Of a stretch of 50,546 bases of DNA, positions 1 through 21,868 are shown one piece after another. How positions within the stretch are numbered: the stretch's first letter is position 1; the number at the start of each line of letters is the position of its first letter. The stretch spans positions 1 through 50,546 of the forward strand of contig JAMXLI010000309.1 of the NCBI GenBank assembly GCA_024281115.1, given 5' to 3'. Position numbers and translations under genes: made by a program. This stretch comes from Terriglobales bacterium. GTDB taxonomy: Bacteria; Acidobacteriota; Terriglobia; Terriglobales; Acidobacteriaceae. Under the pieces are notes generated by a model, which saw nothing but the letters and a program-made list of their open reading frames with translations, did not search any database and had not been told where the DNA came from.

Positions 1-1304
1 CGGGTCGTCACCACGGTCACCCCGGTGGCGAACTGTCCCAGCGCCCGCCGGTAGTCGCGCCGGTCGAAGCGCTCGGCCACTGCCTTGGCTTGCTGCTCGA
101 TAAAGCGCTGCGCCTCCCCGGCATCCACAAACCAGGGGAACAGGGTTCGCGGATCGTCGAACCCGTTCACTACCGCCTCGGCCACTTCGCTGATCTTGCC
201 CGCGAAATCCAGCAGCTTCAGCACGTGCGGCTTGGGCCGCAGCAGCAGGTTGGTCCACTCCACCACCCATTTCGCATACCCACTCCAGTAGCGCTCAAAA
301 GTTTGCTCCATCCAGGCAGCGTCGGCCGGACCGGCGCCGTGCTCGAGAACGCTTTCCAGGTAGATTTCGGCGCAGCGGGCGGCATTGTTGGAGCCCTGGC
401 CGGTAAGGGGATCGTTCAGCACCACCGCATCCGCCATACCCAGCACCAGCCGTCCGGACGGCAGGGCGGCCACGGGCCGGCGCACGGTGGGAGCGAATTG
501 CCCGGTCAGGATGCCATGCTCGTCGGTGAGCTGGGCGTCGCGGCAACGCTCGGCTTCCCAGGGGAGGAACTGTTCCAGGATGGCCTTGCTCCTCGCCAGG
601 TGAACTTCGGGAGAGTGGACATCCTTCCAGCAATCCATCGGCCCGCCGGGAATGCCTTCAAACACCATGATCTCGCATGCCCCGCTGGTGGTCAGGGCGG
701 GAAAGACGAAGTACTCGCCCACGTTCGGAATCATGTTGAAGCACACCGCGGCGTAGGGTTGACGCGGCTGCATGCCGCGCACGTAGGTCAAAGCCAGCAC
801 GCGCTGCGGCTCGGAGTAGGGTGAGCGCTCGCCATCGCGCGCGAACAGTTTCCCCACCTCGCCCTTGCCGCTGGCCACGATCACCAGGTCATGCGAGCGC
901 GCGCAATCTTCCAGGTCGTTGACGCCGGCAGCGCGGATACGCAACTCGCCCCCGCGCTCCTGGAACGTGCGCATCCAGCGCGGGATTTTTACCCGCTGGT
1001 CCACGGACTGGGCGTAGTTGTCGAGGCGGGCCGCCCAGGCGATGGTCTTGCCGCCCACCCCGTCGGGCACGGCGAAGCTGATGCCCTCGACGCGCGGGCA
1101 CTCCTGCTCCCAAAAATTCAGGTTGAGGCTGCGTTCAATCTCGAGCGCCGAGTCGAACATGCACTGGCTCGACATCACGGCGCCGCGCTCAATTTCGCCC
1201 GGGGCGCGGTCCGAGTAGACCGTCACCTCGCGGCCGGCGGCCTGCAGTCCCAGCGCAAGCTGCAGGCCAGACTGTCCTGCGCCGATGATGGCGACGCGCT
1301 TCAC
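1..1304 (-). CDS. Styrene/indole monooxygenase StyA-like FAD oxygenase with C-terminal flavin reductase domain beginning (StyA2B-type fusion); truncated by window edge
   Basis: Own translation of minus strand from GTG 1304: VKRVAIIGAGQSGLQLALGLQ...GKGEVGKLFARDGERSPYSEPQRVLALTYVRG...GMADAVVLNDPLTGQGSNNAA...; frame stays open to base 1 and ends ...AVAERFDRRDYRRALGQFATGVTVVTT, the typical N-terminus of FMN-binding flavin reductases. Not in the ORF track because it is open at the edge. Confidence 0.85.
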   Translation of the reverse strand, partial: MKRVAIIGAGQSGLQLALGLQAAGREVTVYSDRAPGEIERGAVMSSQCMFDSALEIERSLNLNFWEQECPRVEGISFAVPDGVGGKTIAWAARLDNYAQSVDQRVKIPRWMRTFQERGGELRIRAAGVNDLEDCARSHDLVIVASGKGEVGKLFARDGERSPYSEPQRVLALTYVRGMQPRQPYAAVCFNMIPNVGEYFVFPALTTSGACEIMVFEGIPGGPMDCWKDVHSPEVHLARSKAILEQFLPWEAERCRDAQLTDEHGILTGQFAPTVRRPVAALPSGRLVLGMADAVVLNDPLTGQGSNNAARCAEIYLESVLEHGAGPADAAWMEQTFERYWSGYAKWVVEWTNLLLRPKPHVLKLLDFAGKISEVAEAVVNGFDDPRTLFPWFVDAGEAQRFIEQQAKAVAERFDRRDYRRALGQFATGVTVVTT

Positions 1305-1311
1305 GCTGAGA

Positions 1312-2100
1312 TCATTCCATCAGTTTCGGAATCGCGGGCGCGGCCATCTCCGGTCCCATGGCGCTGTATCCGCCATCGACGGCCAGGTCGGTGCCGGTCA
1401 CGAACGAGGCATGGTCGGAGCACAGGAAGAGCACCGCGTCGGCCACCTCTTCCGGTTCGCCCACCCGTCCCAGCAAGTGGAACTGCCCGCCCACGCGATT
1501 GGTTTTCTCCTTGTCGCCGTGGGTGAGATCGTTCATCAGGCGGCACCAGGTCCAGCCCGGCGACACCGAGTTGACCCGGATTTTGTCGCCGGCGAGGTCC
1601 ATGGCCTCGTTGCGCGTCAGTTGCAGGATCGCCGCCTTGGTCACCGGGTAGAGCCAGCGGCCGGTCTGGGCCACCTTGGCGCTGATGCTGCCGAAGTTCA
1701 CCACCGCGCCGCCGCCGCGCTTTACCATGTGCGGGCGCGCCGCCTGCAGCATCATCACCCCGCCCACCACGTTCACGTTGTAGCTGTCGAGCCAATCCTT
1801 GCGCGACGACTGGAGCGCGTCGTCAATGTAGACGCACGCCAGGTTCACCAGGAAATCCACGCCGCCGAACGCCTTCACCGTCTGCTGCACGCAACCCGCA
1901 ACCTGGGCATCGTCGCTCAGGTCTGTCCTGATGAAGCGAACGCCCTCTCCCAGCTCGCGCGCCAGGGCGGAACCGCCCTTCTCCTCCACGTCGGCGATCA
2001 CCACCCGCGTACCCTCGCGATGAAACGCGCGGACCACGGCTGCGCCAATCAGGGTGGAACCGCCGGTCACGATCGCGACTTTGCCTTGCAAACCCTTCAT
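1312..2100 (-). CDS. Short-chain dehydrogenase/reductase (SDR)
   Basis: MKGLQGKVAIVTGGSTLIGAAVVRAF...NVNVVGG...YPVTKAAILQLTRNEA...IRVNSVSPGW...DLAVDGGYSAMG; classical SDR TGxxxxxG and YxxxK motifs. Alternative start at 2109. Stop lies 7 nt upstream of the StyA2B-like start. Confidence 0.92.
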   Translation of the reverse strand: MKGLQGKVAIVTGGSTLIGAAVVRAFHREGTRVVIADVEEKGGSALARELGEGVRFIRTDLSDDAQVAGCVQQTVKAFGGVDFLVNLACVYIDDALQSSRKDWLDSYNVNVVGGVMMLQAARPHMVKRGGGAVVNFGSISAKVAQTGRWLYPVTKAAILQLTRNEAMDLAGDKIRVNSVSPGWTWCRLMNDLTHGDKEKTNRVGGQFHLLGRVGEPEEVADAVLFLCSDHASFVTGTDLAVDGGYSAMGPEMAAPAIPKLME

Positions 2101-2303
2101 GGTTGCCATCTCCGCCCTCGCGCGCCTTCCACCACGCGCACGGTCCCGTCCGTATCGGTGACGGGGTGCCCAACCTAACACGGTCTCGGAACAGCGAACA
2201 AGGGCGGCAGCGGCAGGCAAAGATTGACAAGCTCGGTTATAGTGGCGGCCCAGAGCCCCGGCGCAATCATGCCGGGCCAGCCCAAGGCGCAGGAGCGGGT
2301 CAC

Positions 2304-3545
2304 ATGAGGAAAATCGCCATCTTCGGCGGAGGCCAGTCGGGGCTGCAGCTCGCCCTGGGGCTGCAACAAAACGGATACGAGGTCACCGTCGTCTCCAACC
2401 GCACGCCGGAACAAGTCTTCAACGGACGCGTCACCTCCAGCCAGTTCATGTTCCACGATTCTCTGCAAAACGAACGCGACCTGGGCATCAATTTCTGGGA
2501 GAAGGAGTGTCCGGTCACCGAAGGGATCGCTTTCACCATTCCCGGCCCGAACCGCACCAAGGCGCTGTTCTGGGAGGCCAAGCTCGACCACTATGGCCAG
2601 TCGGTAGACCAGCGGGTGAAGTTTTCCGGGTGGATGAAGGAGTTCGCCAGGCGCGGCGGCAACCTGGTGATCCAGGACGCCGGGCCGCAGGATGTGGATG
2701 CCTACAGCCAAAGCAACGACCTGGTGATCGTGGCCGCGGGAAAGGGCGAGATCAACCGCATGTTCGAGCGCGACCCGGAGCGTTCCCCGTTCGATAAGCC
2801 CATGCGCGCGCTCGCCCTCACCTACGTGAAAAACATGGTCCCGCGCCAGCCCTATACCGCCGTGTCGTTCAACCTGGTGCCCGGGGTGGGCGAGTACTTC
2901 GTGTTTCCCGCGCTTACCACCACGGGCGCATGCGAGATCATGGTGTTCGAAGGGGTCCCCGGCGGCCCCATGGATTGCTGGAACGATGTGAAGACGCCCG
3001 CCGAGCACCTGGCCAAGAGCAAGTGGATCCTGGACACGTTCATGCCGCTGGAGGGAGAGCGCTGCCGCGAGGTGGAGTTGACGGACGACAACGGTATTCT
3101 GGCGGGACGCTTCGCGCCCACGGTGCGCAAGCCCATTTGCCGGCTTCCCTCGGGCCGGCTGGCGCTGGGCATGGGCGACGTGGTGACCACGAACGACCCC
3201 ATCACCGGCCAGGGCGCCAACACCGCCAGCAAGGCCGCGGCCATCTACTTGCGCAGCATTCTGCAACGGGGCAAGCAGCCCTTCGACGCCGCTTGGATGC
3301 AGCACACCTTCGACGAGTTCTGGAACTATGCGAAGTGGGTTACGAGGTGGACCAACTCCCTGCTGGTGCCGCCGGAGGCGCAGATCCTGCAACTGATGGG
3401 AGCCGCCAGCCAGATTCCGCGGTTAGCGAGCACGATTGCCAACGGCTTCAATAATCCGCCCGATTACTCGCCCTGGTGGTTCAGCGCGGCCGAAGCCGAA
3501 AAGTTCATCAACAGCCTGGCCGCGGGCGCCGCCAGCCGCGCCTGA
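2304..3545 (+). CDS. Standalone StyA/indole-monooxygenase-like FAD-dependent oxygenase
   Basis: MRKIAIFGGGQSGLQLALGLQQNGYEVTVVSNR...DLVIVAAGKGEINRMFERDPERSPFDKPMRALAL...GMGDVVTTNDPITGQGANTASKAA; group E monooxygenase features; paralogous to the 1..1304 protein but without the reductase domain. Confidence 0.88.
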   Translation: MRKIAIFGGGQSGLQLALGLQQNGYEVTVVSNRTPEQVFNGRVTSSQFMFHDSLQNERDLGINFWEKECPVTEGIAFTIPGPNRTKALFWEAKLDHYGQSVDQRVKFSGWMKEFARRGGNLVIQDAGPQDVDAYSQSNDLVIVAAGKGEINRMFERDPERSPFDKPMRALALTYVKNMVPRQPYTAVSFNLVPGVGEYFVFPALTTTGACEIMVFEGVPGGPMDCWNDVKTPAEHLAKSKWILDTFMPLEGERCREVELTDDNGILAGRFAPTVRKPICRLPSGRLALGMGDVVTTNDPITGQGANTASKAAAIYLRSILQRGKQPFDAAWMQHTFDEFWNYAKWVTRWTNSLLVPPEAQILQLMGAASQIPRLASTIANGFNNPPDYSPWWFSAAEAEKFINSLAAGAASRA

Positions 3546-3709
3546 GAACGGCCACGCGTATGGCAGGCGACCGCAAGGCAGGGCGCCCATTGCGCGTTCG
3601 CGGAAATTTTGGCCTTCGATCTGCCAGCGGAGGGTGATGCCCGCACTCACCGCCACGGGAGATGCCCCTCTGGCTTCTGTAAAGCGAAAGCAAGACGGTT
3701 CAATAGTGC

Positions 3710-3738
3710 TTGACAACGCGGTATGACCGTTGTTGAAT
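3710..3738 (+). promoter_or_regulatory. Candidate sigma70-type promoter upstream of TonB-dependent receptor
   Basis: TTGACA (3710-3715), 17-nt spacer, TTGAAT (3733-3738, 4/6 match to TATAAT). Confidence 0.4.
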
Positions 3739-3840
3739 TTGGCCGCCCTTCGCATTCGCACGGACACTGACCCAAAATCGGATCGCACCGGAAGCACGAC
3801 ATCGGGGAACTGTAGGACGGCAAGCTGTTCACTAACACAA

Positions 3841-3859
3841 TTGTTGAATTGTTCAACAA
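3841..3859. promoter_or_regulatory. Perfect 19-bp palindrome, candidate operator
   Basis: TTGTTGAA-TTG-TTCAACAA, 8-bp perfect inverted repeat, 34 bp upstream of the receptor ATG. Confidence 0.6.
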
Positions 3860-3893
3860 AAACAGTCTGTTGTTTGTACCGGGGGAGATCGTG

Positions 3894-6800
3894 ATGCACC
3901 GAAACCGTCTTTCTTTCGCTGGCGCGGTGGTTCTCTGCATAGCCGGGCTGGGCGCGAGCCTGGCCGCCCAGGAGCTGGCTACCCTGAAAGTCACGGTGCA
4001 GGACCAATCCGGCGCGGTTATTCCGGGCGCCACCGTCACGGTGAAGAACCAGCAGACCGGGGCGCAGCGCACAGATGTCACCGAGTCCCACGGGCTGTCG
4101 GTCATCCCGGGTTTGCCGCCCGGCGCCTACACGCTCAGCACCAGCGTGAAGGGATTCACGCCGCGGGAGCAGCCCGTCACCCTGTCGGTGGGACAGACGG
4201 CATCGCTCACCGTCGTGCTCGGCATCACGGTCAAGGAAGAAGTGCAGGTGTCGGAGGTGGCGCAGGGCATTGATACTGAAAAGTCGGAGGTCAGCCAGGT
4301 CATCGACACGCCCAAGATCGCCGACCTGCCCATCTCCGGGCGCGACTTCATTGATTTTGTTCTGCTCACGCCCAACGTCAACGTGGGGCGCAGCACCGCG
4401 GTCGGGGCGCAATCGCCGTTCACCGAAACCGTGCTCAAGCTCAGCTTCGGGGGCGTGCGCGAGAGCCACACCTCCTACTTCAGCCTGGACGGCATCGATT
4501 ACACCACCAGCATTTCCGGAGTGCAGCGCATCAGCCCCTCGCAGGACTGGGTGCAGGAATTCCGCGTGGTGGACAGCCCCTATACGGGCGACAACGGCCG
4601 CAATCTCGGCTCCGTGGTCAACACCGCCATTCGATCGGGCACCAACGACGTGCACGGCTCGGTGTACGAGTTCTTCCGCAATAACGACATCAATGCCAAG
4701 AACCTGCTTTCGGCGCCCGGCTTCAATACCTTGCGCTCCAACCAGTTCGGCGGCACCCTGAGCGGTCCCATCCGCAAGGACAAGAACTTCTTTTTCCTGG
4801 GGTATGAAGGCCAGCGCCGCGCCGAATCGCCGTTGTACTCCTCGTTCATCCTGCACTGCATTGACCAGACCGGATGCCTGGGACCGGGCACGCCCAGCAT
4901 CAACCAGGTGAAGCAGATCCTGGGCCTGCAGCCGGAAAACCTGGGCTCCATTCTCCAGATTGACGATTACGACAAATCCATCGTCAAAACCAACAACGTT
5001 CTCAGCCCGAAGACCTTCCTGAACGTAGGGTACCTGTTTAACGACTCGCGCAAGCAGAACGTGCGCGGCGCGGCCCCGGGCGAAGGTTTGCCGTCCTCCT
5101 ACCGCGATAACCCGGTCCGGGACCAGACCATTTATGGCAGCCTGATTCACGTCTTCAACCACGATCTGACAGGCGAGACGCTGCTGGAGTATGGCAAACG
5201 CACCTTCAACCTGCAGCCCAAGGGCCTGGGACTGGAGCCCGCTTTGGGCATTCCCGACCTCATGTCGTCGGGCGGGTTCGTGGGCAGCGTGCGCTTTTAC
5301 CGCGAGCAGAACTTCCAGGCGGCGCAGAACCTTACCTACACGCGCGGCAACCACACCTTCAAGTTCGGCGGGCAATTCGAGCCGGTGTGGACCAGCACGC
5401 AAGTCACGCTGTTCAGCCCGGGCTTCGCCATCTTCGCGCCCCAGAGCTTTTTCGGCGTGGGACCATTTGCGGCATTCGGGCCGGCAACGCCGGTGGCGTT
5501 CCTGTTCCTCGAGCCGCGCTCCTTTTTCGGGCAGCAGATTCCGAACCGCGATCCCAATTTCCAGGCTGGGCTGTACGCCGGCCCCAACCAGGCGGCGTTC
5601 AACGATGCCACCTCGCTCAACTACGAGCACACGCTGTATTCGGCTTATGCGCAGGACCAGTGGCGCGTGCGTCCGAACCTGAGCCTGACGCTCGGCCTGC
5701 ACTACGACGTGGACCAGTTCCCCTCGGCGAGCGACATGAAGATCATCGGTCGCTTCCATCCCACCAACTATGGCAACGTGCAGCCCCGGGTGGGCCTGGC
5801 CTACTCGTTTGATGGCGGCAAGGGCGTGGTCCGCGCCGGCGCCGGCCTGTTTACCGCTCCCTTCGTTTACAGCGACGTGATGGTGAGCTGGATTGGCGCT
5901 TCCGAGTTCACCTACATGCACCAGCCGCTGTTGCCAGAGTTCTCCGATCCGAGCCAGCAACTGATCGGCTTTGGCGCCTCGGGCGCGGTGGGCGCCTGCA
6001 CCACCAACAATCCCATCCTGCCCGGCCTCTGCTTCCCCTGGTTCCCGTTCCTCAAGCAGACGGTGCAGAATTTCGTGGCCACGGGCGCGTACCCGGCGCC
6101 CAGCAACCTGGTGCAGGTGCCGCTGGGCTACGCCAAGCGCGAATTTCCCCAGCCCCTGTCGGAACTGGCCAGCCTGGAAGTTGAACACCAGATCGGCAAA
6201 GACTTTTATGCCACGGTGGGCTACCAGTACATGCACGCCTCGCGGCTGCCGGTGTACACCAGCATCAACGGCACCCCGCTGCCGGGCTGCGATGCCAACG
6301 TGGTCAGCGGTTGCAAGCAGGCCTTCATCCCCGCCGACCCAAACTTCGGGTTCGTGCTCTACGTGCACCCCATCGGCTGGTCGCTTTATAACGCCGGCAC
6401 GGTCAGCCTGCGCAAGGCCTTCTCCCATCACTTCAACCTGCTGGCCAATTACACCTATTCCAAGTCGCTGGACATCGCCACCACGGTTAACCTGCCCAAC
6501 ACGCCGGAAAACTATCTGTGCCTGAAGTGCGATCGCGCCGTGGGCGACAACGACGTCCGCAACCGCTTCACCCTGGCCCTGCTGACGGAGACGCCGCACG
6601 AAGCAACCTGGCTGCTGCGCGATTTCAAGTTTTCGCTGTTAAATACGCTGCAAAGCGCGCGTTATTTCACCATCAATGCGGGCTTCGACACCAACGGCGA
6701 CATCTTTCCCTTCCCCGACCGGGTGGGGGTAAGCGCCCGCAACAGCTACCGCGGCGATCCCTACTACAACACGGACGCGCGCCTGCAGCGCGTGTTCCCG

Positions 6801-7025
6801 GTCGGCGAGAAGGTGAAGGCGGAGGCCAGCGTGGAAATGTTCAACGTGTTCAACCGGCCCAACGTGCTGGATGTGGACCACGCGTACGGGCTTCCGGATT
6901 TCGCCGGACCGGTGCCGACGCATTTTGGCGATCACATCAGCAGCCCGGCCAACCCGACGTTCGGACAGCCCAAATTCGTCGCTGCCGCGCGCCAGTTGCA
7001 GATTTCTCTGCGCCTGAATTTCTAG
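3894..7025 (+). CDS. TonB-dependent receptor (Oar-like) with N-terminal carboxypeptidase-regulatory-like domain
   Basis: Signal peptide MHRNRLSFAGAVVLCIAGLGASLAAQ, LKVTVQDQSGAVIPGATVTVKNQQTG, plug-like VSQVIDTPKIADLPISGRDFIDF, many beta strands, C-terminal ...LQISLRLNF. Confidence 0.9.
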   Translation: MHRNRLSFAGAVVLCIAGLGASLAAQELATLKVTVQDQSGAVIPGATVTVKNQQTGAQRTDVTESHGLSVIPGLPPGAYTLSTSVKGFTPREQPVTLSVGQTASLTVVLGITVKEEVQVSEVAQGIDTEKSEVSQVIDTPKIADLPISGRDFIDFVLLTPNVNVGRSTAVGAQSPFTETVLKLSFGGVRESHTSYFSLDGIDYTTSISGVQRISPSQDWVQEFRVVDSPYTGDNGRNLGSVVNTAIRSGTNDVHGSVYEFFRNNDINAKNLLSAPGFNTLRSNQFGGTLSGPIRKDKNFFFLGYEGQRRAESPLYSSFILHCIDQTGCLGPGTPSINQVKQILGLQPENLGSILQIDDYDKSIVKTNNVLSPKTFLNVGYLFNDSRKQNVRGAAPGEGLPSSYRDNPVRDQTIYGSLIHVFNHDLTGETLLEYGKRTFNLQPKGLGLEPALGIPDLMSSGGFVGSVRFYREQNFQAAQNLTYTRGNHTFKFGGQFEPVWTSTQVTLFSPGFAIFAPQSFFGVGPFAAFGPATPVAFLFLEPRSFFGQQIPNRDPNFQAGLYAGPNQAAFNDATSLNYEHTLYSAYAQDQWRVRPNLSLTLGLHYDVDQFPSASDMKIIGRFHPTNYGNVQPRVGLAYSFDGGKGVVRAGAGLFTAPFVYSDVMVSWIGASEFTYMHQPLLPEFSDPSQQLIGFGASGAVGACTTNNPILPGLCFPWFPFLKQTVQNFVATGAYPAPSNLVQVPLGYAKREFPQPLSELASLEVEHQIGKDFYATVGYQYMHASRLPVYTSINGTPLPGCDANVVSGCKQAFIPADPNFGFVLYVHPIGWSLYNAGTVSLRKAFSHHFNLLANYTYSKSLDIATTVNLPNTPENYLCLKCDRAVGDNDVRNRFTLALLTETPHEATWLLRDFKFSLLNTLQSARYFTINAGFDTNGDIFPFPDRVGVSARNSYRGDPYYNTDARLQRVFPVGEKVKAEASVEMFNVFNRPNVLDVDHAYGLPDFAGPVPTHFGDHISSPANPTFGQPKFVAAARQLQISLRLNF

Positions 7026-7108
7026 CCGCAGAGCGCGCGGCGCGCAGCCTGAGCGGCCGACGTTATTTTGGCCCGGCCGCCGCACAACAGCGAGGACCCT
7101 TCAACGTG

Positions 7109-8173
7109 ATGAAACCCTATACCGCGGTCGGCCTCATCCCGGCCGTTCGCGGCATCCGCCGCCGCAAAGACATACGCATCAACCTGGAACACCTGCGCCA
7201 CCTGGTGAAGGCGGCGAGTTGGCTTTCCGCGCTCGACCTCCCGGTGCGCCTCATCGCCTTTCCCGAAGGCGCGCTGCAGGCCTTCAACGACGAGGTGCTC
7301 GACCTGGATCATGTGAAGTTCGCGCGCGAATGCGCCATTGACATTCCGGGCGAGGAAACCGAGGAACTCGGCAAAATCGCGCGCGAGTACGGCGCCTTCA
7401 TCATGGCGCAAGCCAAGGCGCGCCACCCCGACATCAAAGACCGCTTCTTCAATGTGGGCTTTATCCTCGATCCCAAAGGTAAAGTAATACTTCAGCATTA
7501 CAAGGTGTCGCCGCTCTTCCCGGTGGAACATTCGGTTTGTCCGCACGACATCTACGACTGGTGGATCGAAAAGTACGGCCGCAACCTCGACGCCTTCTGG
7601 CCGGTAGCCGATACCGCCATCGGCCGGCTGGGCATCATGATGGCCAACGAGGGCTCCTACCCGGAGAACGCGCGCGCGCTTGCGCTCAATGGGGCCGAGG
7701 TGGTCTACCGCGCCTCCTACCCGCACCCGGGCACGGGCAATGAAATCTTCGAAATCCAGAGCCGGGCCCGGGCGCTGGACAACAACATGTACGTTGTGGC
7801 GCCCAACCTGGGCACCTATTACCTGTTCCCCGAAGAGACCACGCCGATTGACACCTTTGGCGGGCGATCGTTCATCATCAACTACAAGGGCCAGATCGTG
7901 GGGCGGCAGGAATACGGCGGCGATTCGACCTACGTTGCCGGCGTCATCGACATCGAGGCGCTGCGCGACCATCGCGCCCGGGCGCAGTGGGACAACTGGC
8001 TGAAAGACGTGCGCACCGAACTGTACCAACTCCTGTACGAGCAGCCCATCTATCCCAAGAACCTCTATCTCAAGCGCGAACCAATGAAGCATGCCGAATA
8101 CCGCGAGAAGGTGATCAAGCGGCAGATCCGGTTAATGCACGAGCGCGACATCTGGAAAAAGCCGGGGCGCTAG
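7109..8173 (+). CDS. Nitrilase/carbon-nitrogen hydrolase superfamily protein, catalytic Cys position is Ala
   Basis: LIAFPEGALQ (Glu), ILQHYKVSP (Lys), RLGIMMANEGSYPENARALALNGAEVV (Cys box without Cys). Confidence 0.85.
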   Translation: MKPYTAVGLIPAVRGIRRRKDIRINLEHLRHLVKAASWLSALDLPVRLIAFPEGALQAFNDEVLDLDHVKFARECAIDIPGEETEELGKIAREYGAFIMAQAKARHPDIKDRFFNVGFILDPKGKVILQHYKVSPLFPVEHSVCPHDIYDWWIEKYGRNLDAFWPVADTAIGRLGIMMANEGSYPENARALALNGAEVVYRASYPHPGTGNEIFEIQSRARALDNNMYVVAPNLGTYYLFPEETTPIDTFGGRSFIINYKGQIVGRQEYGGDSTYVAGVIDIEALRDHRARAQWDNWLKDVRTELYQLLYEQPIYPKNLYLKREPMKHAEYREKVIKRQIRLMHERDIWKKPGR

Positions 8174-13857: not shown

Positions 13858-14682
13858 TCACTCCAGGAACAACTTCAGGCAGCAAACGCTGCCGCCGGAT
13901 TTCTCGAACTCCGACGTGTCCACAAGCACCGGCTGCAGGCCTTCGCAGTCGAGCGCTTTGGCTACGCTCGCGGGCAAGTGAGGAAGCAAAAATCTACCGT
14001 TTGCGGAAACACCATTGCACACGAACCGCAACGCCTCGTCGCGAGTCACCTCGTACACCCGCGGGCATTTGTCGCGGATGGCCGCGAGCGCGCTCGGGGA
14101 GAATGCGCCGGGATAGATGAGGACGGCGCCGGGAGTGAGCGGGGCGAAGCAGGTATCCAGGTGATAGAAAGTGGGGTCCGTCAGCTCGAGCGCGACCACC
14201 TCGAGCCCCAGCTCACGCATTGCGTGCGCGAAGCTGTCCACGCCTCCACGCGAAGAGCGAAAGCCGAAGCCCGCCCAGATCCGCGAGAAATCCACGTCCC
14301 AGAGCAGGTCGCCGTGGCCCTCCAGGTAATCGTTCTCCAGGGCCAGCTCCACAACCTTATAACCGCGCTGACGAAACCATTCCACAAAGTGCGGCACCTC
14401 GCGCCGGCGCGAGTGGTGACGCATGTGCCCAGGCACGATGAATCTGCCGATCGTCGGAGACTTGCCGACAAAAGTCTGGTTGGCCGCGAACACCATATCT
14501 TCCAGATCGGGCACCGCAGGTATGCTCTCAAGTTCAAATCCCGCCTCTTGAAAAGCAGCCCGCAGCGCATGCCATTGACGCGCGGCGCGCTCCCGGTCCA
14601 CGGGATCTCCGGGCTGCATGAAGGGATTCTTGACGTCGCGGACCTCGAAGTAGGTCGGCGGGCAGAACAGGACTTTGCGCAT
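13858..14682 (-). CDS. Amidinotransferase/dimethylarginine dimethylaminohydrolase-like hydrolase
   Basis: MRKVLFCPPTYFEVRDVKNPFM...DMVFAANQTFV...LEGHGDLLWD...FYHLDTCFAPL...EFEKSGGSVCCLKLFLE. Confidence 0.82.
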   Translation of the reverse strand: MRKVLFCPPTYFEVRDVKNPFMQPGDPVDRERAARQWHALRAAFQEAGFELESIPAVPDLEDMVFAANQTFVGKSPTIGRFIVPGHMRHHSRRREVPHFVEWFRQRGYKVVELALENDYLEGHGDLLWDVDFSRIWAGFGFRSSRGGVDSFAHAMRELGLEVVALELTDPTFYHLDTCFAPLTPGAVLIYPGAFSPSALAAIRDKCPRVYEVTRDEALRFVCNGVSANGRFLLPHLPASVAKALDCEGLQPVLVDTSEFEKSGGSVCCLKLFLE

Positions 14683-14706: not shown

Positions 14707-16062
14707 TCATACTGTCCTGCCGCTCACCGCTTCCAGCCGGTGTTCGAAGCGTTGGCTGAACTCGGAGAGCACGGAACGCAGATTGCTTCCCGCGCGTTCC
14801 TCGATCTCATAACGCACGCGCACCGCCGGCTTGTTGAGGCGCAGGATGCTCCCGAGATCAATGGGCGTGGCCACCAGCACCAGGTCGCAGGGCACGCGGT
14901 TGATGGTTTCTTCCAGTTCGTGGCGCTGCATGCCGCTGTAGCCCATTGCGGGGAGCAAGGTGGTCAGATGCGTGTACTTGCCATAGGTGCCGCGAATCGA
15001 GCCGACCGCGTAGGGCCGCGCATCCACCAGCTCGGAAGCGCCGTACTGCCGCGCCGCCACGACTCCCGCTCCATAGGCCATTTCGCCGTGCGTGAGCGTG
15101 GGACCGTCTTCGACCACCAGCACGCGTTTACCGGCGATGAGTTCGGGATGGGCCGTGGTCACGCGGCAGGCGGTCTCGATCACCTGCGCCTGCGGGTTGG
15201 TTTTGCGGATGTTGCTGCGCACCGTCTCGATATCGTGCAGCGCGGCCGTGTCCACCTTGTTGATGATGACCACGCCGGCGCGCCGCAAATTGACTTCGCC
15301 GGGATAATAGCCAATTTCATGGCCGGGACGGTGCGGGTCGGCCACCACGATCTCCAGGTTGGCGCCATAAAACGGCGTGTCGTTGTTGCCGCCATCCCAG
15401 AGCACCAGGTCGCCTTCACGTTCGGCCTGGCGCAGGATGGCCTCGTAGTCCACGCCGGCATAGACCACGGTCCCCTGCGCGATGTGCGGCTCGTACTCTT
15501 CGCGCTCCTCAATGGTGCACTGCTCGTGTTCCAGGTCGGCCAGGGTGGCAAAGCGCTGCACGGCCTGCGCTGCCAGGTCGCCATAGGGCATGGGATGGCG
15601 CACCACGACCGGCTTCCAGCCGAGCGTCCGCAATTCTTCGGCCACGCGCCGCGAAACCGGGCTCTTGCCGCACCCCGTACGGACGGCGCAAACGGAAATG
15701 ACGGGCACCTCGGCGGCGATCTGGGTGCGTTCGGCCGCCAATAGCCAGAAGTCCGCCCCGGCGGCGGCGGCGCGCGAAGCCAGGTGCATCAGCGTGGCGT
15801 AAGAGACATCGCTGTAGGAAAAGACGCACACGTCTACCTCGCGCTCACGGATGATGCGCTCCATCTCATGTTCTTCCAGGATGGGAATGCCGTTTGGATA
15901 GAGCGGGCCGGATAATCGCGGCGGATATTTGCGCCCGGCAATGTCGGGAATCTGCGTGGCGGTGAACGCCACCACGGTGTAGTCCGGGTCGTGCCGGAAC
16001 ACGACGTTGAAGTTGTGAAAGTCTCTGCCTGCCGCACCGAGAATCAGGACGTTTTTTGACAT
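14707..16062 (-). CDS. Cyclic 2,3-diphosphoglycerate synthetase-like P-loop protein
   Basis: MSKNVLILGAAGRDFHNFNVVFRHDPDYTVVAFTATQIPDIAGRKYP...RTGCGKSPVSRRV...LVVEDGPTLTHGEMAYGAGVVAA. Confidence 0.82.
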   Translation of the reverse strand: MSKNVLILGAAGRDFHNFNVVFRHDPDYTVVAFTATQIPDIAGRKYPPRLSGPLYPNGIPILEEHEMERIIREREVDVCVFSYSDVSYATLMHLASRAAAAGADFWLLAAERTQIAAEVPVISVCAVRTGCGKSPVSRRVAEELRTLGWKPVVVRHPMPYGDLAAQAVQRFATLADLEHEQCTIEEREEYEPHIAQGTVVYAGVDYEAILRQAEREGDLVLWDGGNNDTPFYGANLEIVVADPHRPGHEIGYYPGEVNLRRAGVVIINKVDTAALHDIETVRSNIRKTNPQAQVIETACRVTTAHPELIAGKRVLVVEDGPTLTHGEMAYGAGVVAARQYGASELVDARPYAVGSIRGTYGKYTHLTTLLPAMGYSGMQRHELEETINRVPCDLVLVATPIDLGSILRLNKPAVRVRYEIEERAGSNLRSVLSEFSQRFEHRLEAVSGRTV

Positions 16063-16185: not shown

Positions 16186-17262
16186 TCAGCCCTTGGCCCA
16201 GGAGCGCCAATCCTGCTCGGTTTTTTCCACCATCTTCGCGGTGGCGGCGCGCAGCCACCCTCGCCGGCGGCCTCGCAGGTCCTTGCGCACGCGTTTAGCT
16301 GTGGCGGCGTCGCCCAAATGGATGTTGGCCGTTTCCCATCCCATCGCGTACAGCAGCCGGGTTTGGTCGCCTTCCCGGGGCAGGTCGGCCAGCTCGACCC
16401 GGGAACAGTCGGGGGAGAGTCGCCGGACAATCCATTTGCCGCGCAGGTGAACAAAAGGATCGGGACAACGCACCGCGCGCGAAACAATGGCCTGATACAT
16501 GATTTCCGGGGCGCAGTCGTCAGCCCAGGCCCAGTAATGCGCCGAAGGCACCAGCGCCTTAGCCTCCCGCGCAATGCGCCCGCCGCGCCATTCGGCCAGC
16601 GCAACCAGGCGGTGATGGCCCAGGCTGCCCGTACCCGCCACCCGACGTACCACCCGGTACCGCAGCCCGGGCTCGGGCAGAAGATGCTCCAGCGCGTCCC
16701 GCGCCGAAGCCGGAATGGGGGCTCGCGCCAGCGGCCAGGAGTCCATCTTTTTCCAGAAGCGCACCGGGTCGCGCAGCTTGCTGGCTGCGATCTGGCGCAA
16801 CCAGGAATGCTTCTCGCTTAAAACAAACGACTCTCCCCCGGCAGCCAGCGAGTCGCTGTAGCCCTCGAGGATGGCGTCGCAGGCCGAATCGACCTGCAGG
16901 CGCAGCCGCTGCTCTTGAGCCGCCAGGGCAGCGCTGGCGGCCAGGCGCACCAGATCGTTGGTATAAGCGATGGTGGTGGCCTCATCGAAATCGTTGACGC
17001 CCCAGATGAGCCGCCCTTCGATGTCGCGCCAGGTGCCGAAGTTCTCGACGTGCAGGTCGCCCACGGCCAGCAGGTGGGGGGCGCGGGCCAACTCGGGACA
17101 GAGCTTGGGCCAGATCTGCGCCCAGCGATAGAAGGTGCCGCGAAAAAAAAGAAAGACGCTTTCCGCCAGGTGCTGATGTTTCAGACGCAGGTCCGCGGCC
17201 AGGATGGGAGTGTGCCGGGCCAGCCAGGCTTCATATTTCCGGGTGCACTTGCGAATGTTCAT
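16186..17262 (-). CDS. DUF2252 family protein
   Basis: FFRGTFYRWAQ...LLAVGDLHVENFGTWRDIEGRLIWGVNDFDEA...TNDLVRLAASAALA; start at MNIRKCTRKYE. Confidence 0.8.
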   Translation of the reverse strand: MNIRKCTRKYEAWLARHTPILAADLRLKHQHLAESVFLFFRGTFYRWAQIWPKLCPELARAPHLLAVGDLHVENFGTWRDIEGRLIWGVNDFDEATTIAYTNDLVRLAASAALAAQEQRLRLQVDSACDAILEGYSDSLAAGGESFVLSEKHSWLRQIAASKLRDPVRFWKKMDSWPLARAPIPASARDALEHLLPEPGLRYRVVRRVAGTGSLGHHRLVALAEWRGGRIAREAKALVPSAHYWAWADDCAPEIMYQAIVSRAVRCPDPFVHLRGKWIVRRLSPDCSRVELADLPREGDQTRLLYAMGWETANIHLGDAATAKRVRKDLRGRRRGWLRAATAKMVEKTEQDWRSWAKG

Positions 17263-17297
17263 CCGGGCGGTCACGATAATCGCCCGCTCCCGGGGTG

Positions 17298-18128
17298 TCA
17301 ATTCGCTTTCGCCGGGGTCCCGATCCGCTTTTCTGCCTGCAGCAGCAGCGCGTGCAGCGATGCGCCGGTGCGGTATTCGGCCGCGCCGCAGCACAGCGCC
17401 ATTTCCAGTTGGTTGTGGCCCAGGTTCCACTGGTCGGCGCGATCGCGCAGGCGGAGGGTGGCGCGTTCCGCCTGGCGCCGGTTCGTGTCCGGCATGACCA
17501 CGAGGAATTGGTTGCGGCTGTAGCGGATGAGGATATCGCCGCCGCGGAACGTTGCCTTCATCAATTGGGCGGCTTCGCCGACCAGCCGCTCCTCCGCCGG
17601 CCCGGAATTCCGGCTGGCTTCCTCCGGCAGCCGCAGCTCGATCATGAGGAAGGTCAGAGCATTGCCGGTGCGGTTGGCCCGCGAAATTTCGTGCAGAGCG
17701 AATTGTTCGAGCGCGGGACGGCTGAAGAGCTGGGTCGCCGGATCAATCAGGGAGAGCGTCTCCAGCCTTTCGTTGAAAGCAAGTTCGTGGATGAGGGCGC
17801 TGCGGGTGGCGTTCAGGGAACGCTTTTGCAGGATGATGTAAGCATTAAAGAGCAGGATCAGGGAAATGAGCCCATAAAACAGCTGCGGCAGGTACTTCTC
17901 CTGCACGTGCAGGCTGCCGATGGAGGCCTTCCACATCATGTTGGGGACGATCAAGGCGGAAAACCCGGCGGCCAGCACCACCATCACCAGCAGGCCGATG
18001 GACCACAACTGCAGGTCGCGTCCGCCCAGCAGGTCGAGCTGCTCCCGGATGTGCAGGCTGCGGGTCTCGCGGGGATCAGGCGAAACGTTGGTCAGAGTCG
18101 GCAACGCTTGAGCGAAATGTATGGTCAT
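17298..18128 (-). CDS. Membrane-anchored degenerate GGDEF-domain protein
   Basis: Two N-terminal hydrophobic helices, then SLIDPATQLFSRPALEQF...FRGGDILIRYSRNQFLVVMPDTN; GGDEF replaced by SRNQF. Confidence 0.82.
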   Translation of the reverse strand: MTIHFAQALPTLTNVSPDPRETRSLHIREQLDLLGGRDLQLWSIGLLVMVVLAAGFSALIVPNMMWKASIGSLHVQEKYLPQLFYGLISLILLFNAYIILQKRSLNATRSALIHELAFNERLETLSLIDPATQLFSRPALEQFALHEISRANRTGNALTFLMIELRLPEEASRNSGPAEERLVGEAAQLMKATFRGGDILIRYSRNQFLVVMPDTNRRQAERATLRLRDRADQWNLGHNQLEMALCCGAAEYRTGASLHALLLQAEKRIGTPAKAN

Positions 18129-18471: not shown

Positions 18472-20451
<1,980 letters not shown>

Positions 20452-20500
20452 TCCTGGAACTTCGTCTGAGCCGACGACGCTGATTTACCATACTCAGCGC

Positions 20501-21868
20501 ATGCCCACCGATGTCAGCGGATTGAGCCTGGCCGAGGTCTCCGAACTGGTGCGCACCCAGTCGGTGTCGCCGGTGGAACTCACGCGCGCCTGCCTGGAGG
20601 AAATTGAGCAGCGCGACTCCAGCCTGAACGCTTTCATCACGCTCACGGCCAATTCGGCGTTGGAACAGGCGCGGCAAGCCGAAAGCGACATCCGCCGCAG
20701 CCGCTGGCTGGGTCCCCTGCACGGCATACCCTTGGCGCTGAAAGACCTGATTGACACAGCGGGCGTGCGTACCACTGCCGCGAGCGCCCTGTATGCCGAG
20801 CGCATTCCCCAGAAGGACGCGGAGGTGGTCCGCCGCCTGAAGAATGCCGGGGCGGTGCTGCTGGGCAAGACCAATCTGCACGAGTTCGCGTTTGGCGGCA
20901 GCGGCATCATCAGCCATGTGGGCCCGGCGCGGAACCCACACAATCCCGCGCACATCACCGGCGGCTCCTCTTCCGGGTCAGCGGCGGCGGTGGCGGCCAA
21001 CTTTTGCTACGGGGCGCTGGGCACCGACACAGCAGGCTCCATTCGCCTGCCCGCATCGTGCTGCGGCATCGTGGGGCTGAAGCCGACCTATGGACGGGTG
21101 AGCGCGCGCGGCGTGGTCCCGCTTTCCTGGTCGTACGACCATGTGGGGCCCATGGCACGGAGCGTGCGCGACAGCGCCATGCTGCTGCAGGCCCTTGCCG
21201 GGTACGATGCGGACGATGCCGCCAGCCAATCCGTTCCCGTTCCCGATTACGCCTTTGCCTTGCAGCAGGACCCCCGGCACTTGCGGGTGGGCCTGGAGCG
21301 CCAGTTTTTCTGCGCCGATCTCGATCCAGAGGTGGCCGCGTGCTTCAACGACGCGCTGCGCCGGGTGGAGCGGGTTGCGGCCGGATTGTGGGAAATTGCG
21401 ATCGCGGTGGACACGGATCGCACGGTGGCCAAGGCGGAAACCTGGGCCTACCATCGCGACCTTGTCAGCGAACATCCGGAGGCATATCAGCCGGAGACTT
21501 TGCGGCGGGTGCGGGCCTGCGCCGATGTTCAGACCTACGAATACATCGCGGCGCGGCGCTCGCTGGAAAGGATGCGGCGGACGGTGCCAGGCATCTTCCA
21601 TCACGTGGACCTGCTGGTCACGCCCACCGTGCCCATTCCACCGCCCAGCTTCGTCGAACTGGGGGCCAAGCCCGAAGAACTGCGCGCGAAAGAGCTCACC
21701 CTGCTGCGCAATACGCGGCCCTTCAACGTGCTGGGCCTGCCCGCGATTTCCATCCCCTGCGGACGGACGCGCTCAGGGTTGCCGCTGGGCTTGCAGATTG
21801 CCGGCCGCCCCTGGGACGAGGCGTCGGTGTTGTGCCTGGCGCTGGCGCTGGAGCAGGCGGCAGCCTGA
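20501..21868 (+). CDS. Amidase signature family enzyme (GatA-like)
   Basis: ALKDLIDTAG, GGSSSGSAAAVAA, GTDTAGSIRLPASCCGIVGLKPTYGRVS; Ser-Ser-Lys triad motifs intact. Confidence 0.9.
   Translation: MPTDVSGLSLAEVSELVRTQSVSPVELTRACLEEIEQRDSSLNAFITLTANSALEQARQAESDIRRSRWLGPLHGIPLALKDLIDTAGVRTTAASALYAERIPQKDAEVVRRLKNAGAVLLGKTNLHEFAFGGSGIISHVGPARNPHNPAHITGGSSSGSAAAVAANFCYGALGTDTAGSIRLPASCCGIVGLKPTYGRVSARGVVPLSWSYDHVGPMARSVRDSAMLLQALAGYDADDAASQSVPVPDYAFALQQDPRHLRVGLERQFFCADLDPEVAACFNDALRRVERVAAGLWEIAIAVDTDRTVAKAETWAYHRDLVSEHPEAYQPETLRRVRACADVQTYEYIAARRSLERMRRTVPGIFHHVDLLVTPTVPIPPPSFVELGAKPEELRAKELTLLRNTRPFNVLGLPAISIPCGRTRSGLPLGLQIAGRPWDEASVLCLALALEQAAA

Follow-up and report, generated by a model that had tools for sequence, protein, structure and literature searches.

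Enzymes of the nitrilase superfamily are taught as Cys-Glu-Lys(-Glu) enzymes that work through a thioester, and the locus analyzed here raises the question of what such a protein does when an alanine stands where the cysteine should be. The gene lies on a 50,546-nucleotide stretch of DNA from a Terriglobales soil bacterium; we call the whole stretch the window, and an earlier note on this DNA had proposed that it encodes a nitrilase-fold protein with an alanine nucleophile position. The open reading frame begins with an ATG at 7109 and its stop codon ends at 8173 on the forward strand, giving a product of 354 residues. The protein matches CN_hydrolase (PF00795) with 93.5 bits against a cut-off of 23.2 (E = 1.8e-26), and its top fold matches are AmiF and AmiE, which bears out the proposed fold. 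The nearest solved relatives found by phmmer in the PDB are Helicobacter pylori formamidase and aliphatic amidases (E = 2e-15 and weaker). When phmmer aligns the protein with H. pylori AmiF (2dyu/2e2k), Ala179 (codon GCC at 7643–7645), which sits within LGIMMANEGSYPE, falls on Cys166, the position that is a serine in the 2e2k mutant. Glu53, the general-base glutamate of FPEGA (7265–7267), falls on the FPE glutamate, Lys132 of HYKVSP (7502–7504) on the catalytic lysine, and Glu140 of PVEHS (7526–7528), the counterpart of E142 in the Geobacillus pallidus amidase, on the second active-site glutamate. The spacing of 8 between Lys132 and Glu140 is that of AmiE and AmiF. The earlier note had correctly seen an alanine in the nucleophile box, but it read the box against the generic nitrilase motif, which is not the best reference; MANEGSYPE matches the aliphatic amidase and formamidase box (ICHDGMIPE / ICDDGNYPE) position by position.

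The AlphaFold model, built with 46 homologues (mean pLDDT 85, pTM 0.86), has a strand at residues 172–177 followed by a helix at 179–183, so that A179 occupies the turn between strand and helix, the expected place of the nucleophile; the loop between Lys132 and Glu140 is of low confidence (pLDDT 64). A Foldseek search of the PDB ranks AmiF first and AmiE close behind (E about 1e-22). The scores of the protein lie far below the NCBIfam equivalog cut-offs for both AmiF (56.5 against 406 bits) and AmiE (50.2 against 427 bits). As it belongs to the PF00795 fold and has the Glu, Lys and second Glu of the catalytic carbon–nitrogen hydrolases but not their defining nucleophilic cysteine, annotation as a carbon–nitrogen hydrolase should await an assay. 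Plasmid records do annotate members as "nitrilase-related carbon-nitrogen hydrolase", a label that may mislead pathway prediction.

The simplest way to remove the puzzle would be an ordinary cysteine enzyme whose nucleophile has been misread or relocated, and the protein does contain two cysteines, Cys75 and Cys144. We compared 84 intact Ala-type proteins (38–100% identity), drawn from 78 related loci together with plasmid and genome searches. E53, K132, E140 and A179 are each present in 100% of these proteins, a conservation of the alanine far beyond chance, and among the 78 related loci, which come from independent assemblies and include cultured isolates, alanine is present in each orthologue for which the sequence extends over the nucleophile region. 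Its codon is GCC in 34 cases, GCG in 34, GCT in 9 and GCA in 7; four synonymous codons are thus in use, which indicates drift at synonymous sites and retention of the residue itself. A sequencing or frame error is ruled out by these codons, by the independent genomes and by the two base changes that a Cys-to-Ala replacement needs. No other conserved cysteine was found in the clade, Cys75 occurring in 83% and Cys144 in 67% of members, and the serine of EGSYPE, considered as a unique nucleophile, varies to Asn, Ala or Cys. Neither of the outcomes that the earlier note said would overturn its reading, a different cysteine as nucleophile or a cysteine on resequencing, was therefore encountered, and we consider a misread or relocated cysteine refuted for practical purposes.

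A decaying pseudogene or neutral relic would likewise explain the missing catalytic residue, and frameshifted or split copies are present in some assemblies (L092, L099, L106, L109 and L112). Against decay, pairwise NG86 estimates of dN/dS are about 0.02–0.12, with dS saturated for distant pairs, and among close Acidobacteriota the Ala protein is the best conserved of its cluster (91–94%, compared with 81–85% for the short-chain dehydrogenase (SDR), 82–86% for the oxygenase and 67–80% for the receptor). This conservation, the invariant Glu-Lys-Glu (E-K-E) set and the occurrence of a single clade over many phyla and two domains refute the relic explanation, to which we give very little weight. 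Probably, then, the Ala-type protein is functional, with a different mode of action, and is not a broken enzyme.

In an IQ-TREE phylogeny of 48 representatives the Ala clade is monophyletic (support 100/99). Its members come from Acidobacteriota, Rokuibacteriota, Chloroflexota, Dormibacterota, Actinomycetota, Alpha- and Gammaproteobacteria, Myxococcota, a Bacteroidete plasmid and haloarchaeal plasmids. The haloarchaeal megaplasmid homologues (L166, L167, L168 and L170; LAIEGAYPE) keep the E-K-E set. The sister of the Ala clade is a Cys clade of Terriglobia, joined to it with support of 89/93, and the window's own genome carries a Cys-bearing sister paralogue (G000:C241), 52% identical, elsewhere in the genome. 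The tree gives the Ala clade a single origin, with the cysteine replaced by alanine once and the alanine kept since. A second, independent Cys-to-Ala change, on the same branch of the superfamily, is found in an acidobacterial family (f70; L159, L160 and L161; LLAFDGKFPE) that also keeps E-K-E, and placing all Ala proteins in a single clade is rejected (p-AU 1.7e-57), which makes f70 a separate origin. The f70 genomes hold up to four paralogues each. A distant nitrilase-fold homologue (L154, in genome G475) has a serine at the nucleophile position (AVASEEILYPE) and an arginine aligned to the lysine. The Ala gene is rare. Samples of 396 Acidobacteriota genomes and of 299 genomes from the order that includes Actinomycetospora each yielded two carriers, and 289 genomes from the class to which Rhodoplanes belongs yielded three; this rare and patchy occurrence is consistent with horizontal spread. 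The clade is best read as a previously uncharacterized, horizontally spread branch of aliphatic-amidase/formamidase-like proteins.

The genes around the Ala gene in the window provide a first indication of its setting. At the window edge, which cuts it, lies the gene of a second indole-type monooxygenase that ends in a flavin-reductase domain at its C-terminus (1–1304, reverse strand); the full-length orthologue in another locus (L117) is a fused monooxygenase and reductase of 574 residues. It is followed by an IifB-like SDR (1312–2112, reverse strand; NF006121, 413 bits) whose start codon is not fixed and which is 56% identical to the SDR of an Acinetobacter baumannii cluster and 55% to one on a Tsukamurella plasmid. 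On the forward strand comes an IifC/IndA-like flavin monooxygenase of the indole/styrene type (2304–3545; Smoa_sbd PF17885, E = 2e-42), which is 56% identical to the A. baumannii iif-type oxygenase and has as its best PDB match 7z4x (E = 2.5e-178), which we take to be the Variovorax indole monooxygenase VpIndA1. Between this gene and the Ala gene, on the same strand, an open reading frame at 3849–7025 encodes a large protein that, judged from its sequence, resembles outer-membrane receptors of the TonB/Oar type; its stop codon lies 83 bases before the ATG of the Ala gene. The earlier note had also placed a TonB receptor upstream. Receptor orthologues hold the same place in at least 12 Acidobacteriota loci, and the receptor is one element only of the acidobacterial version of the neighborhood.

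Genes for the oxygenase and SDR also adjoin each other in the A. baumannii iif-type cluster and, as the same pair, in Variovorax and Burkholderia, and the third A. baumannii gene shares 51–58% identity with the reductase found in related acidobacterial clusters. Positions 1–8173 of the window bring together the indole-type oxygenase, reductase and SDR orthologues that mark iif/ind-type clusters. We found no IifA homologue in the window or in the Ala-bearing loci, save for a part in L115, the A. baumannii query being an open reading frame named IifA by position only. Nor did we find a cyclase gene beside the Ala gene in the window's cluster; weaker cyclase homologues (34–41%) occur elsewhere in the genomes of several Acidobacteriota carriers. 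In some Acidobacteriota clusters (L069, L115 and L116), genes for an isochorismatase, a molybdenum hydroxylase, a Nit6803-type nitrilase or the Cys paralogue turn up as well; in L115 and L069 the Ala gene is accompanied by those for a Nit6803-type nitrilase, an isochorismatase and a Cys amidase-like protein, with the molybdenum hydroxylase added in L115. Farther along the window are a dimethylargininase / arginine dihydrolase-like gene (13,858–14,682, reverse strand; NF045659, 205 bits, below cut-off), two long open reading frames on the reverse strand with no NCBIfam match at 1e-10 (14,707–16,062 and 16,186–17,430), and an AtzE/GatA-like amidase-signature gene (20,438–21,865, forward strand; 350 bits, below cut-offs) that follows an acetyl-CoA-synthetase-like open reading frame.

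The association with the oxygenase holds across Acidobacteriota. Among 61 relatives, the four carriers of the Ala gene are exactly the four carriers of the oxygenase (p = 1.9e-6; p = 2.9e-5 without the window's own genome). In the 396-genome sample of the phylum, a close oxygenase (at least 71%) occurs in two genomes, which are also the two that carry the Ala gene, and a third genome has a 36% homologue only; in one carrier (G251) the two genes are unlinked, on separate contigs. Outside the phylum the indole monooxygenase is not enriched (2 of 39 carriers compared with 1 of 27 controls, p = 1), and so as a universal partner it fails there.

In other lineages the Ala gene is often found with a TrpB-like PLP enzyme (NF009057, 741 bits; TIGR01415), which adjoins it or lies within about 6 kb in 33 loci from several phyla. 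The pair occurs in both gene orders, often 2–365 bp apart, and several of these loci also have NitT/TauT- or Liv-type ABC transporters. TrpB-like enzymes may serve roles besides indole use. The TrpB-like gene is absent from the Terriglobia carriers, which rules it out as a universal partner as well. A Tsukamurella plasmid carries the Ala gene (63%) immediately after the gene of an isatin hydrolase (5nmp, E = 1.4e-75), and the region also contains the SDR related to that of the window, genes of the indolepyruvate oxidoreductase family, a ligase of the benzoate-CoA / 2-aminobenzoyl-CoA type and a monooxygenase-reductase of the salicylyl-CoA/2-aminobenzoyl-CoA type. A Chloroflexota locus (L064) has the Ala gene and the TrpB-like gene together with homologues of two Tsukamurella genes, the ligase (54%) and the monooxygenase (60%). 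Plasmids of Alloyangia and Azospirillum have the same indole oxygenase and SDR beside a salicylyl-CoA/2-aminobenzoyl-CoA-type monooxygenase or a cyclase gene, with no Ala gene in the stretch shown. In Actinomycetospora the Ala gene is flanked instead by an NCS2 permease and an SfnG-like monooxygenase; one such genome (G099) carries, on a different contig from the Ala gene, genes of the isatin-hydrolase-like and 2-aminobenzoyl-CoA types that lie 2 kb from each other. The haloarchaeal neighborhoods are uninformative. From gene content, the recurring theme is probably the route from indole or tryptophan to anthranilate. No single partner is universal, given the lack of monooxygenase enrichment outside Acidobacteriota and of the TrpB-like gene in Terriglobia, and these two facts, together with the differing neighbors in Actinomycetospora, leave the pathway assignment probable rather than proven.

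What, then, might the protein do? With the nucleophilic cysteine lost, a thioester acyl-enzyme cannot form, while the invariance of Glu53, Lys132 and Glu140 in all 84 proteins disfavors a structural relic or purely structural role. The earlier note had offered a binding or structural protein and an enzyme with another mechanism; these were the right alternatives, except that the structural part now recedes. That the pocket is functional appears highly likely, and a role in metabolism of the indole/tryptophan/anthranilate type is reasonably well favored. On balance we lean, by a little, toward a conserved amidase-like protein that either carries out a non-covalent reaction on, or binds, an indole- or tryptophan-derived amide or lactam in its Glu-Lys-Glu pocket. 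Most likely, this pocket would bind an amide- or lactam-type metabolite from indole or tryptophan breakdown. Glu53 could then act as a general base that activates water for direct attack while Lys132 stabilizes the oxyanion, making the reaction non-covalent; alternatively, the pocket may only bind its ligand. We slightly favor the former, although catalysis without the cysteine is in itself evenly balanced.

A true pseudoenzyme, which would sense or deliver a small amide or nitrile or regulate another protein, for example the TrpB-like enzyme or the Cys paralogue, is the most serious competitor, possible but short of an even chance. The lost cysteine fits it, Cys-to-Ala mutants of relatives have been solved, some with ligand bound, and potential partners would be the TrpB-like enzyme, whose gene in several phyla forms a close operonic pair with the Ala gene, and a Cys paralogue, encoded near the Ala gene in four cases (L069, L109, G025 and G055). 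A pure binder, however, would not obviously require Glu53 without exception in 84 sequences. Most carriers are without the Cys sister and the Terriglobia without the TrpB-like gene, so no obligate partner is known; an obligate heteromer with the Cys paralogue, found in a minority of carriers only, is rejected. For the Acidobacteriota protein a more specific possibility is that it is the ring-opener of an iif/ind-like pathway, substituting for IifA or a cyclase-type isatin hydrolase through thioester-free hydrolysis of the 3-hydroxyindolin-2-one or isatin lactam. The Ala gene fills the IifA slot of a cluster that has the oxygenase, reductase and SDR, and its co-occurrence with the oxygenase is perfect in this phylum. 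But the Tsukamurella cluster holds isatin hydrolase and Ala gene together, most carriers outside Acidobacteriota are without the oxygenase, and several Acidobacteriota carriers have the cyclase homologues mentioned above. This guess at a substrate is an unlikely one.

It is a tentative proposal, somewhat less than evenly weighted, that the whole cross-domain branch performs C–N or related chemistry on an indole-derived substrate by means of Glu-Lys-Glu and water, with no Cys thioester; if true, a superfamily regarded as defined by its cysteine would gain a new mechanism. The alanine fixed in this strongly selected clade, with the rest of the active site intact, offers a clean natural test of thiol-free chemistry versus ligand binding in the nitrilase fold, and the indole and tryptophan neighborhoods make candidate substrates directly testable and may supply a missing part of how uncultured Acidobacteriota in soil break down indole.

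Among known systems, the iif/ind clusters convert indole into anthranilate by oxidation (IifC/D), dehydrogenation (IifB) and ring opening by IifA (PMC6221969), and the Providencia indole cluster employs a cyclase (PMC9871250). The oxygenase, reductase and SDR of these clusters in Acinetobacter, Cupriavidus and Providencia are orthologous to those of the window, but no nitrilase-fold gene is mentioned there (PMC6221969, PMC9871250), and neither IifA nor a cyclase gene was detected in the cluster of the window. AmiF and AmiE share with the Ala protein the fold, the Glu-Lys-Glu set, the Lys-to-Glu spacing and an elbow of the xxDGxYPE type; the Ala protein differs in the replacement of Cys166 and in a longer segment from Glu140 to the elbow. 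The Cys sister family (G000:C241 and L003), sometimes encoded in the same cluster, is likewise full length with E-K-E kept and is about 50–56% identical; unlike the Ala protein, it has ICMEGSFPE with cysteine, and its Lys-to-Glu distance is one residue shorter. Our literature search, which covered sources other than subscription journals, found no paper on natural Cys-less nitrilase-fold pseudoenzymes. The closest parallels are two laboratory mutants among the Foldseek matches, C145A of a Nesterenkonia amidase with butyramide (4izs) and C171A of a carbamoylase (1uf4, C171A/V236A), which have the same substitution in the same fold. Where theirs was made in the laboratory, that of the Ala family is natural and conserved, making this family their natural counterpart.
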